Origin: Chloroflexota bacterium
GTDB lineage: Bacteria > Chloroflexota > Anaerolineae > Aggregatilineales > Phototrophicaceae
Length of the DNA: 64,000 bases
Direction of reading: 5' to 3'
Assembly: GCA_026707665.1 (NCBI GenBank)
Contig: JAPOWK010000084.1
Span: 1 to 64,000 of the forward strand
How positions within the stretch are numbered: the first letter of the stretch is position 1; the number at the start of each line of letters is the position of its first letter. Under the pieces are notes generated by a model, which had not been told where the DNA came from, did no database searches, and saw nothing but the letters and a program-made list of their open reading frames with translations. Below, one piece after another: positions 25,946 through 64,000 of this stretch. Made by a program: the position numbers and the translations under genes.

Positions 25946-26971
25946 CTAAGGGTAAATCCCGGGAAACTCCAGCCCGGTCGTTTCATCCAACTCATGCATC
26001 AGATTCATTGCTTGCACGGCGCTGCCGGCCGCGCCCTTGCCTAGATTGTCCAGCGCAGCGATGACCACCAGGTGCGCACCATCGTCGTCCAGCTCGAAGC
26101 CGATGTCACAGTAATTCGTGCCGGCGACCACACGCGGTTCCGGCAGGCGATGCAAGCCCGCTTTGCCGCTCACCAGACGCAGAAAGGGCTCGTCGATATA
26201 GCGCCCGCGATAAAGCCGCCAGATGTCGCGCTCGACCTTTGGCTCGCTCAGGTAACAATGCGCCAGCAGATGAATGCCGCGCACCATCTCAATTGCCGTA
26301 ACCGAGAAATGAAGCGGGATATCTTCGCCCAGCACAAGCTGCGCTTCCGCCAGGTGTCGATGTCCGGTGGCTTTGTAGCTGCGGACGGCGCCGCTGCGAA
26401 TCGGATGATGCGAGCCGGGATTGCTCTTATTGCCGCCCTCCGAAGAGCCAACCTTGATCTCACAAGCAGCGCGCTCCAGGATGCCCGCCTGGACCAGCGG
26501 AAGCAGCGCCAGATTCAACGCGGTCGCATTGCAGCCAACCCCGCTGACGTAGCTGGCGCCAATGAGCGATTCGCGATTGACCTCGGGCAAGCCGTAAGCG
26601 AAACGATACAGCCAGCGCGGCGCCGGATGCGGCTCGCCGTAATATTTCTCGTAGGTGGCGGCGCAATCGAGGCGGAAATCGGCGGACAGGTCTATGAGCT
26701 TGGGCGCAAGCCCGGCATAGCGCTCGATATGGCGCGCGGCGGTCCCGTGCGGCAGCGCCAGAAAAAGCAGGTCGCACTCGTCCAGCGCATCGGGATGAAT
26801 AAACCGCAAGCGGGAGACGCCACGCAGATTTGGATGCACGGTATGCGCATAGCGGCCCGCTTGTTCGCGACTGGTGATCTGCGTCACCTCAATATGCGGG
26901 TGAAAGTGCAGCAGTCGCAGCAGCTCGCCGCCGGTATAGCCGCTGCCGCCAACGATGCCCGCCCGAATCAC
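25946..26971 (-). CDS. lysY: [LysW]-aminoadipate/glutamate phosphate reductase
   Basis: ArgC-like: 'RAGIVGGSGYTGGELLRLLHFHPHIE', 'YVSGVGCNATALNLALLPL'; overlaps lysX by 4 bp. Confidence 0.9.
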   Translation of the reverse strand: MIRAGIVGGSGYTGGELLRLLHFHPHIEVTQITSREQAGRYAHTVHPNLRGVSRLRFIHPDALDECDLLFLALPHGTAARHIERYAGLAPKLIDLSADFRLDCAATYEKYYGEPHPAPRWLYRFAYGLPEVNRESLIGASYVSGVGCNATALNLALLPLVQAGILERAACEIKVGSSEGGNKSNPGSHHPIRSGAVRSYKATGHRHLAEAQLVLGEDIPLHFSVTAIEMVRGIHLLAHCYLSEPKVERDIWRLYRGRYIDEPFLRLVSGKAGLHRLPEPRVVAGTNYCDIGFELDDDGAHLVVIAALDNLGKGAAGSAVQAMNLMHELDETTGLEFPGIYP

Positions 26972-59280: not shown

Positions 59281-59666
59281 GTTTTTCACAAAGTTGATTC
59301 AGGATTGGGCATAATTCGTCCGGAATTGGTCGGCGATATTTCGCTGAACGTACCGTCTCACTCCGCTCAAAACCACAAAACGTAAAAGGTACTCAAGCTG
59401 CAAAGCGAGGCGAATCGCGCAACATACATACTCTATGACAGTTTGCAGTTCGCGGCATTTGTCGCCACTGCTGTTGTCCGCCGCCATGCCTGCGATTGGT
59501 CACCGGATATGCCACGATGCTCACAAACTGTCTCTTTTCCGCAGCGACAACTGCAATAGGCGCCAGCATTCCGATGCGCCAGCGAAATCAGCATCCGGAA
59601 CCTGCACGAATCTTCGTATATATTGCACAAGGAAAATTCAATAGTGCATAAAGATATATTCCTGAG

Positions 59667-59695
59667 TTGACTAATTCTGGCGCGAAAACTAGAAT
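59667..59695 (+). promoter_or_regulatory. sigma70-type promoter for the argC leader/operon
   Basis: TTGACT (59667-59672), 17-nt spacer, TAGAAT (59690-59695). Confidence 0.75.
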
Positions 59696-59724
59696 TTGAT
59701 GAGCATCAATTGGACAAAATCAAG

Positions 59725-59811
59725 ATGTCAAATTACAAAGTGACATTCGAACCTTTGAGGCGTCGCCGTCCCGCACCGGTCGAGTTCAGCGCGCGCGGTT
59801 TGTGTTTGTGA
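59725..59811 (+). CDS. putative arginine leader peptide MSNYKVTFEPLRRRRPAPVEFSARGLCL
   Basis: ATG TCA AAT TAC AAA GTG ACA TTC GAA CCT TTG AGG CGT CGC CGT CCC ... TTG TGA; four consecutive Arg codons (12-15); followed by an intrinsic terminator and then argC. Confidence 0.82.
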   Translation: MSNYKVTFEPLRRRRPAPVEFSARGLCL

Positions 59812-59839
59812 CAAGACGTCTGTTCAAATGCAAATGAGG

Positions 59840-59876
59840 CCCTGATCTCGAATTCGCAGGTCAGGGTTTTTGTTTT
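59840..59876 (+). terminator. intrinsic terminator inside the argC leader (attenuator)
   Basis: CCCTGATCT-CG-AATT-CG-C-AGGTCAGGG hairpin (59840-59866) followed by TTTTTGTTTT; only 14 nt before the argC ATG. Confidence 0.88.
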
Positions 59877-59890
59877 GTAGGGAGAGGACG

Positions 59891-60895
59891 ATGAAGAGCA
59901 AAATCTGCGCTGGTGTTTATGGCGGCTCTGGTTATGCTGGTCTTGATCTGGTGGAGCTACTGTGGCGCCATCCACAAATTGAATTGGCTTTCGCGACATC
60001 AAATACCTATGCTGGCGACTCTGTGCCCGGCACGAATCTGCATTATGTATCTCCGGATTCGGTCGCGCTGGAAAATGTCGATGTGATTTTCCTAGCGCTC
60101 CCGCACAAGGCCTCGGCCGCGATGGCGAAACGTGGCATGGACGAGGGCGTCAAAGTGGTGGATCTATCGGCCGACCTGCGAATCGATACGCCCGAAGCCT
60201 ATGAACGGTCGTATCATAGTCCCCATCCTCACCCGGAATTGCTGCCAAGGCCTTATGGACTGCCGGAAATCAATCGCGAAAATGTCAATGGCGCTGACGT
60301 CGTCGCGACCCCCGGCTGCTACCCGACAACCGCCTTGCTCGGCATCTATCCCTTGCTGGTAACCGAGGCGCTTTGCGAAGACAGTCCGGTGATCATCGAC
60401 GCCAAGTCGGGCGTCACCGGCGCCGGACGCAAGCCGTCGCTCACGACGCATTTCGCCGAGGTCTACAGCAATTTGATTCCCTACAAGACTGGCCGATCTC
60501 ATCGTCACCTGGGCGAAATCGAGCAGGAGGCGCATAAGATCAGCGATCGCATCGGTCCCATCATCTTTTGCCCGCATCTTCTGCCGGTTGACCGTGGCCT
60601 GATGACGAGCATTTACGTAACGCTGAACGAAGGTCTCGAGAGCGATCAGATGCATGACCTCTACAGCGAGATGTACGATGACGAAGCGCTGGTGGATGTC
60701 TTGCCAGCGGGCGAACAGGCGACGTTGCGGCATGCGGTGAAGACGAATAAATGTGTCATCAGCATCACGCCTGTATTGCCGCGCCACGCGCACATCACAA
60801 GCGTGACCGACAATCTGCGCAAGGGCGCCGCAAGCCAGGCGGTGCAGAATATGAACTTGATGTTTGGATTGAAAGAAACCCTGGGATTAATATAG
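59891..60895 (+). CDS. argC: N-acetyl-gamma-glutamyl-phosphate reductase
   Basis: 'AGVYGGSGYAGLDLVELLWRHPQIE', 'VVATPGCYPTTALLGIYPLL', 'PHLLPVDRGLMTSIYV'; ATG at 59891. Confidence 0.94.
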   Translation: MKSKICAGVYGGSGYAGLDLVELLWRHPQIELAFATSNTYAGDSVPGTNLHYVSPDSVALENVDVIFLALPHKASAAMAKRGMDEGVKVVDLSADLRIDTPEAYERSYHSPHPHPELLPRPYGLPEINRENVNGADVVATPGCYPTTALLGIYPLLVTEALCEDSPVIIDAKSGVTGAGRKPSLTTHFAEVYSNLIPYKTGRSHRHLGEIEQEAHKISDRIGPIIFCPHLLPVDRGLMTSIYVTLNEGLESDQMHDLYSEMYDDEALVDVLPAGEQATLRHAVKTNKCVISITPVLPRHAHITSVTDNLRKGAASQAVQNMNLMFGLKETLGLI

Positions 60896-60897
60896 CG

Positions 60898-61673
60898 ATG
60901 GATTCCATCAGCGTCGTCAAGGTCTCAGGACATTGCCTGGACGACCACGAATTGATTAGTCAGTTTGCGAAGGTCGTTGCTTCAACCGACGAGCCTGTGG
61001 TAATCGTGCACGGCGGCGGCGTGGAAATCTCGCAGTTACAGCACAAATTGAATATCGAGCCTAGGTACGTCGATGGCTTGCGTGTGACAGACGCCGATTC
61101 GCTGGCTCTCGTCGAGATGGTATTATGCGGAAGCGTCAACAAGCGACTTGTGCGATACTTGCTTTCGGCGGGGGTGGATGCCCAGGGCTTATCGGGCGTC
61201 GATCGTGGATTGGTTCGCGCGCGCCGAATGCGACACGAGTCCCTAGACATGGGCTATACGGGCGAAGTCGTTTCTGTTCGCGGCGAAGTTATCACCGACT
61301 TGCTTGAGCGGGGTATAACGCCGGTTGTGTCGCCAGTCAGCTTGGGCGCGTGCAGCAATTTCAACCTCAATGCTGATCCGGTTGCCGGCGCAATCGCAGC
61401 CGCCATCGGCGCGCATGAGGTGGTATTCATTTCAAATGTCGCCGGCGTATTGGTCGAAGGGAAGCGCGCCGCCAGTTTAACCCGGCTACAAGCGCTGGAT
61501 TTGATCGAGCGCGGTGTGATTCATGGCGGCATGATACCCAAAGTGGAAAGCGCTCTGGTTGTGCTATCATCGGGTGTGCCGCAAGCGGTGATCACCGATT
61601 TGCAAGGTTGGGCAAGTCGCGAAGGCACGACCTTTATTGGCTCGGGCGCGAAAGCGAGAATTAGCGAGGAGAT

Positions 61674-61683
<10 letters not shown>
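60898..61683 (+). CDS. argB: acetylglutamate kinase
   Basis: ATG at 60898 inside ORF 60751..61683; 'EPVVIVHGGGVEISQLQHKLNIEPRYVDGLRVTD', 'LNADPVAGAIAAAIGAHEVVFISNVAGVL'. Confidence 0.92.
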
Positions 61684-62862
<1,179 letters not shown>

Positions 62863-62876
<14 letters not shown>

Positions 62877-64000
62877 TCCTTCGGTAGATTCTGTTCGCGG
62901 CTTTCAAGTCTCCGGAGTACATGCCGGACTGAAAAAGGACGGCGCGCCGGACTTCTCGCTGGTGGTGAGCGAAGTCGATTGTGTCGCTGCTGGCGTGTTC
63001 ACGAAGAACAAGGTAAAAGCGGCGCCGGTGTTGCTGGATATGCAGCGTCTGGAAGAAAACCCGAAATCGATTCGAGCGGTCGCGACCAACACCGTCAGCG
63101 CCAATGCTTGCACGGGCGCCATTGGGTTGAAAAATGCGCGCGCCACTTCCAACCTGGTGGCGGACGCGCTCTCTATTGTGGCGGAACAGGTTTTGGTGAT
63201 GTCCACCGGCGTCATCGGGACACACCTGCCGATGGACAAGATCGCCCGCGGCGTCGAGCTGGCGAGCGCGAATCTTGGCTCGGACTGGCGCGCGGCGGCC
63301 GCCGGCATAATGACCACCGATACGCGACCCAAGTTCGGTTCGATCACGGTGGAAACGGCTGAGGGATCTTATTCCATCGCCGGCATGGTCAAGGGCGCCG
63401 GCATGATCGCGCCCAATATGGCGACGATGCTGAGTGTGGTCGTTACCGACGCTGAGTTGCCGCTGCCGGACTTGCAGTCGTCGCTGCGGGCGGCGGCCGA
63501 TCAGAGTTACAATCGGATCGTGATTGATGGCGACACCAGCACGAACGATACCGTCCTTCTTCTTGCCAATGGGATGAGCGGCATCTCGCTCGCAAGCGAA
63601 GAAGAATTGGACGCATTTGACGAGGCGTTAAACGCGCTCACACGATTTCTGGCGCAGGAAGTCGTGCGTGATGGCGAAGGCGTCACCAAATTCATCACAC
63701 TCAACATTGTAAATGCTGAGTCTGTAGCTGACGCTGAGAAGATCGGGCAGACGATTGGCGCGTCGGTCCTGACCAAGTCGGCCTTTTACGGCAGTGACGC
63801 CAATTGGGGGCGCATCATGGCGGCTGCGGGCCGCGCGGAGGCGCCGCTTGAGCCGGACAGCGCATCGCTGTGGGTGGCGGCGGGCGAATCGGGACCAAGT
63901 GAGGCGCCCGGCCTGGAGATCTTCAGCGGCGGCATGCCCACCGATTATCGCGAAGAAGACGCGGCCGCGATCATGGCGGCGCCCTCGATCACCTTCACGC
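62863..64000 (+). CDS. argJ: bifunctional glutamate N-acetyltransferase/amino-acid acetyltransferase ArgJ (truncated by window edge)
   Basis: ATG at 62863 overlapping the argD stop; open to the window end; 'VKGAGMIAPNMATMLSVVVTDA' autocleavage motif, 'VIDGDTSTNDTVLLLANG', 'SDANWGRIMAAAGRA'. Confidence 0.93.

Follow-up and report, generated by a model that had tools for sequence, protein, structure and literature searches.

Classical transcription attenuators, described for the trp, his, leu, ilv, thr and pheA leaders of Proteobacteria and Actinobacteria, combine a short open reading frame (ORF) carrying a run of codons for the end product with mutually exclusive antiterminator and intrinsic terminator helices, upstream of a biosynthetic operon. 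T-box leaders (RF00230) are likewise RNAs that sense tRNA charging and control a terminator, but they bind the tRNA directly and have no leader peptide. In most studied bacteria, feedback control of the arginine genes is the task of a DNA-binding protein, ArgR/AhrC. In fungi, the arginine attenuator peptide encoded by the upstream ORF (uORF) of arg-2/CPA1 causes an arginine-dependent peptide arrest; it acts on eukaryotic translation, involves no terminator, and depends on the sequence of the peptide. The nearest known bacterial arginine-codon sensor is the speF leader (orf34) of Salmonella and relatives, in which consecutive arginine codons of a short ORF sense the arginine supply (PMC6386406). 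Its target is an ornithine decarboxylase gene, and it acts by Rho termination, RNA decay and masking of the ribosome site, without an intrinsic terminator (PMC6386406). In the open-access literature, we found no leader-peptide attenuator on arginine biosynthesis, and none in Chloroflexota. A 2010 survey of premature terminators makes no mention of argC, arginine or Chloroflexi, three genome-wide RNA-motif papers contain neither Chloroflexi nor an arginine leader of this kind, and Rfam holds no model for the element described here.

We analyzed a window (the whole stretch of DNA under study, 64,000 nucleotides) from an assembly of 4.67 Mb. This genome is a metagenome bin, as are its named congeners. 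The original prediction was that an attenuator with arginine codons precedes argC, the first gene of an argC-argB-argD-argJ operon. The features of the locus, with the evidence for each, are as follows.

59667-59695, + strand: sigma-70-type promoter, TTGACT (59667-59672), 17-nt spacer, TAGAAT (59690-59695); consensus scan, with invariant T, A and T in the -10 element of 30 congeneric leaders.
59725-59811, + strand: leader-peptide ORF of 28 codons (ATG 59725, TGA 59811), predicted peptide MSNYKVTFEPLRRRRPAPVEFSARGLCL; sequence, with frame and stop kept in relatives.
59758-59769, + strand: putative regulatory arginine codons AGG CGT CGC CGT, codons 12-15; an arginine cluster is found in every genus leader and most class leaders.
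59780-59789, + strand: antiterminator 5' arm UCGAGUUCAG, on Glu-Phe-Ser codons; pairing with 59842-59851, compensatory changes, swap test at 41 loci, in-silico fold.
59796-59835, + strand: inner helix of the antiterminator hairpin, GGUUUGUGUUUG with CAAAUGCAAAU; the window's own sequence, conserved only in nearest relatives.
59836-59879, + strand: intrinsic terminator, made up of hairpin 59836-59870 and the remaining T-rich tract TTTTTGTTTTG; fold, pairing across relatives.
59842-59851, + strand: antiterminator 3' arm CUGAUCUCGA, which is also the terminator 5' arm and the start of its loop; pairing, compensatory changes, in-silico fold.
59891-60895, + strand: argC, N-acetyl-gamma-glutamyl-phosphate reductase, the first regulated gene; Pfam Semialdhyde_dh/dhC.
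60898-61683, + strand: argB, acetylglutamate kinase; Pfam AA_kinase, operon position.
61674-62876, + strand: argD, acetylornithine aminotransferase; Pfam Aminotran_3, operon position.
62863-63999, + strand: argJ, glutamate N-acetyltransferase, extending past the window end; Pfam ArgJ, 5e-119.

The consensus scan recovered the promoter exactly where it had been predicted, and the 28-residue ORF with its four consecutive arginine codons was also correctly placed. Translation of this ORF could alternatively begin at an in-frame TTG (59710). The start codon of argC is the ATG at 59891, and Pfam matches confirmed argC, argB, argD and argJ downstream of the leader. Elsewhere in the window, the minus strand (25970-26968) carries another ArgC-like gene, whose product has 38% identity to ArgC and which is present in nearly all relatives; it possibly encodes a LysY-type enzyme of lysine biosynthesis.

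Of 61 related genomes, 55 contained argC, and 30 congeneric leaders, all in the same orientation, were aligned. Such a comparison had been proposed as a check of the prediction, and its outcome was favourable: all 30 leaders keep the -10 element, the arginine run, a GAGTTCAG-like segment, the stop codon and the terminator (CCCTGATCTCGA...GGTCAGGG followed by a T run). An argC gene that has lost both the arginine ORF and the terminator, which the prediction had named as counter-evidence, occurs at none of 32 loci of the genus and is rare in the class. Two Anaerolineae argC genes, L034 (G034) and L064 (JAPOVC010000014.1), have no arginine leader or terminator; either the element was lost there, or argC was relocated behind another promoter.

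Insertions and deletions within the ORF are multiples of three among the genus leaders, the arginine codons show third-position differences, and both TGA and TAA occur as stop codon, all of which indicates a coding sequence selected for arginine. With its conserved frame, stop and arginine identity, the ORF is probably translated and has what is expected of the short ORF of an attenuator. Between the first arginine codon and the terminator, genus leaders have a spacing of 85 +/- 6 nt and leaders of other families one of 89 +/- 11 nt; in the latter, the distance from the stop codon to the terminator is relatively looser (33 +/- 10 nt).

The strong hairpin noticed just before the argC ATG was borne out by folding. 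The 59836-59870 hairpin has a predicted energy of -19.6 kcal/mol (z = -4.56), which none of 200 shuffled sequences equalled, and 99.6% of the cells of its stem are paired across 30 species. A simple terminator scan missed the terminator upstream of argC. It lies after the leader ORF and ahead of argC, which is the position of the intrinsic terminator in the attenuator class.

For the antiterminator, the original prediction offered only a weak candidate, CGAGUUC with GAAUUCG. In the 30-species alignment this helix is paired in 58% of cells, compared with 20-44% when one strand is slid, and it is not kept outside loci L001-L005; we therefore dropped it. Pairing across the 30 species led to its replacement by the helix 59780-59789/59842-59851, which is paired in 86% of cells as opposed to 22-60% when slid by 1-2 bases. 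Its 8-bp core is 90% paired, and three pairs are altered on both sides. A G-C pair has become A-U in L004 (UCAAG/CUUGA versus UCGAG/CUCGA), and an A-U pair has become G-C in L029 (GAGAUCGG/CCGAUCUC). The covariation check proposed for the hairpins thus yielded compensatory changes in the antiterminator, although the arm varies so little that the covariation seen among congeners is modest. As 59842-59851 belongs to both helices, antiterminator and terminator exclude each other. The alignment and folds thus provide, for an attenuator, the expected parts, their conservation, a coding arginine run and mutually exclusive helices with compensatory changes, including what appears to be a shared-arm antiterminator starting just past the regulatory codons.

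Two further pairings had been proposed. The helix between the arginine codons and 59815-59821 (AGGCGUC/GACGUCU) is partly supported, being paired in 74% of cells in the 30-species alignment, compared with 35-45% when slid. The GUUUGUGUUUG/CAAAUGCAAAU pairing forms the inner antiterminator helix in the window, but across the genus it does not stand out (55% versus 45-54%) and is confined to L001-L005. The RNAalifold consensus of the leader preceding the terminator shows only weak pairing, of the arginine codons with bases after the antiterminator arm.

In-silico folding was performed with and without a ribosome. With the ribosome on codons 12-15 and the terminator 3' arm still untranscribed, the antiterminator forms with P = 0.98, and with the ribosome at the stop codon the terminator forms with P = 0.999. 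In the absence of a ribosome, the antiterminator is favoured (P = 0.96), unlike in the trp leader. We found no strong 1:2 protector hairpin in the leader, so that read-through is predicted in the absence of translation, the opposite of trp. The antiterminator 5' arm ends 19 nt before the leader stop codon. Judging from the ribosome footprint, the arm would be exposed again by the time a ribosome paused at the stop. Shut-off would then depend on timing or on another pairing, for which support is partial; this may be the pairing of the arginine codons with the post-stop bases.

The explanation best supported by the comparative evidence remains the predicted one, an attenuator with arginine codons on argC. 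We consider that the element is a ribosome-mediated transcription attenuator sensing charged arginine tRNA, with a probability of roughly 0.88 as judged from sequence comparison. We infer ribosome stalling, its timing and the cellular response to arginine, which would proceed as follows. RNA polymerase would start near 59702, and a ribosome would begin the 28-codon leader. When charged arginine tRNA is scarce, the ribosome would stall on codons 12-15, leaving the segment just ahead (59780-59789) free to pair with 59842-59851 once the latter is transcribed. This pairing would remove the terminator 5' arm, and transcription would proceed into argCBDJ. When charged arginine tRNA is plentiful, the ribosome would cross 59780-59789 to reach the stop codon, and the antiterminator would not form in time. 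The 59836-59870 hairpin would then form, and transcription would end before argC. Compared with classical attenuators, such a leader would differ in sensing arginine, in occurring in Chloroflexota, in the frequent location of the antiterminator arm inside the ORF (8-17 nt past the regulatory codons and before the stop), and in the apparent lack of a strong protector hairpin with the read-through predicted for an untranslated leader. It most likely represents a known mechanism class, with a new amino acid and in a new phylum.

Stalling could also be due to the nascent peptide itself. The leader peptide, together with free arginine or a polyamine, would arrest the ribosome in the manner of the fungal arginine attenuator peptide, and this arrest would control the same terminator or the translation of argC. 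As in fungi, a uORF lies upstream of an arginine-biosynthesis gene; here it encodes an arginine-rich peptide, and some members of the genus seem to share the residues that follow the arginine run (E-F-S and G-L-C). However, the E-F-S codons are the antiterminator arm. The residues encoded there vary (Gly or Lys in place of Glu, Ile of Phe, Gly of Ser) with base pairing retained, indicating that the RNA, rather than the peptide, is selected at this position. Beyond the genus, the peptides have only arginine codons in common, and their length and C-terminus vary freely. Conserved residues other than the sensed codons, the mark of an arrest peptide, were thus not found, those conserved in the genus coinciding largely with the RNA arm. 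We regard peptide arrest as very improbable.

The proposed attenuator is not a local feature of the window: it is spread over a class and part of a second one. In other families of the order and in Thermoflexus, Promineifilum, Caldilineaceae-like and Herpetosiphon/Roseiflexus-like leaders, the bases are quite different but the plan is the same, namely an arginine-rich short ORF, a segment complementary to the 5' arm of the terminator, the terminator and argC. When leaders and terminators were swapped among 41 loci, the duplex energy changed from -17.1 kcal/mol (native) to -13.3 kcal/mol (swapped), and none of 20000 permutations matched the native total; support from this test is weak or absent for the Caldilineaceae-like loci L075, L081, L082 and L084-L086. 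At all 43 non-genus loci tested, upstream pairing of the terminator 5' arm exceeds that in shuffled sequences. The antiterminator arm mostly starts 8-17 nt past the last arginine codon, which is about the distance to the front edge of a stalled ribosome.

An automatic criterion was applied, requiring an ORF with at least three arginines in six codons and a stop near a strong hairpin with a U tract. The resulting counts are not probabilities, because related leaders are not independent samples: positives were 32/32 argC leaders in the genus, 57/67 in other Anaerolineae and 5/7 in Herpetosiphon/Roseiflexus-like genomes, against 0/9 in ArgR-bearing Chloroflexota, 0/9 in Chloroflexus-like genomes (with f67), 1/21 in other Chloroflexota, 3/43 in other phyla, 2/28 for argG/OTC upstream regions of the surveyed genomes and 10/450 for dinucleotide shuffles. 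No convincing attenuator was seen before argG or OTC/ATC-family genes in eight genomes, and control therefore appears specific to argC. In G043, G258 and G162, argG follows argC in the same orientation within about 3-4 kb, so that the argC leader may govern argG too. In families f9 and f12 of the class (e.g. G074 and G156), ArgC-like matches are only distant (E ~1e-57 to 1e-61) or lacking; the arginine pathway or its control may differ in these Anaerolineae.

These counts also bear on a reading slightly less probable than peptide arrest, in which the terminator belongs to an ordinary riboswitch, a T-box or a protein-binding leader and the arginine-rich ORF is a by-product of GC-rich sequence. 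Such sequence does raise arginine content, and the T-box before trpE in the same genome shows that other leader types exist there. Against this, arginine clusters occur in 89 of 99 class leaders but in only 10 of 450 shuffles, and the arginine codons vary at the third position, 122 of 123 being CGC or CGT outside the genus. No Rfam model matched the leader up to E = 1, and the leaders of ten relatives had no Rfam match at the gathering threshold except a tRNA gene. The T-box model RF00230 in particular gave no match up to E = 1 in 59600-59900, nor was any T-box found before argC, while the model does find the trpE T-boxes in the same genome. Least probable of all is Rho- or translation-level control with a hairpin acting after transcription, as in the speF leader, which shares the consecutive arginine-sensing codons (PMC6386406) but has no intrinsic terminator (PMC6386406), whereas a canonical one with a U tract is present in all genus leaders and most of the class.

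Other leaders were noted in this lineage. T-box leaders precede trpE in the genome of the window (L220 1102-1351, G000:C159) and in three relatives (L219, L221 and L222), so tryptophan is served in this lineage by another kind of tRNA-sensing attenuator. In G043, from the same order, a candidate histidine leader peptide, MLKNQLSIAVYHHHHHNFRLHFRW, lies about 290-360 bases upstream of hisG, with a terminator between the two (L228), and G047 has a weaker HHYH candidate (L229); no such leader was seen in the window's genus. One relative, G057, carries a tRNA-Arg gene with anticodon CCG (L033 298-370) a few hundred bases ahead of the ORF of its argC leader.

We next turn to the usual regulator. ArgR-type repressors had been named in the original prediction as the usual control of arginine genes; this does not apply here, the window's genome having no ArgR and the class being essentially devoid of it. 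ArgR (PF01316) had no match in the genome, while nine control genomes did match, and an ArgR-controlled operon was rejected on this ground. Of 301 genomes drawn from across the phylum, 75 had an ArgR match, none of them from this class. In a class-wide draw, 3 of 248 genomes exceeded the ArgR cut-off, with marginal matches to a partial domain, all in one genus. These three matches, in G043, G049 and G054 (27.5-28.2 bits, residues 24-68 of 70, in 112-aa frames), look like unrelated winged helices and were discarded. Attenuator and ArgR look mutually exclusive in these genomes, and some Chloroflexota (Dehalococcoidia-like and Chloroflexus-like) seem to have neither.

The choice of arginine codons in the leaders was compared with that in argC, p-values not being taken at face value as the loci are phylogenetically dependent. 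Outside the genus, the share of CGC/CGT noted above compares with 61% in argC of the same loci, indicating that the leader arginines are chosen as codons. In the genus, AGG makes up 34% of leader arginine codons versus 5.5% in argC, and every species has one in its run. This pattern fits regulatory codons tuned to the isoacceptor most sensitive to starvation, as in the theory of selective tRNA charging (PMC1183508), and the strict choice of CGC/CGT makes this theory testable for a six-codon amino acid (PMC1183508).

Arginine biosynthesis is a textbook case of control by a repressor, ArgR, and the element found here spans roughly a class and coincides with the near-absence of this repressor. 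We lean slightly towards the view that an ancient arginine attenuator replaced, or preceded, ArgR in Anaerolineae and part of Chloroflexia. The circuit would have been kept while nearly all bases other than the arginine codons turned over, and the codons would have been chosen for one isoacceptor (only CGC/CGT outside the genus, an invariant AGG within it), recording which arginine tRNA loses its charge first. Relatives among the culturable Herpetosiphon and Roseiflexus appear to carry the element, which makes it directly testable. Nearly complete sequence turnover with preservation of the circuit would thus offer a clean natural experiment on regulator swapping.
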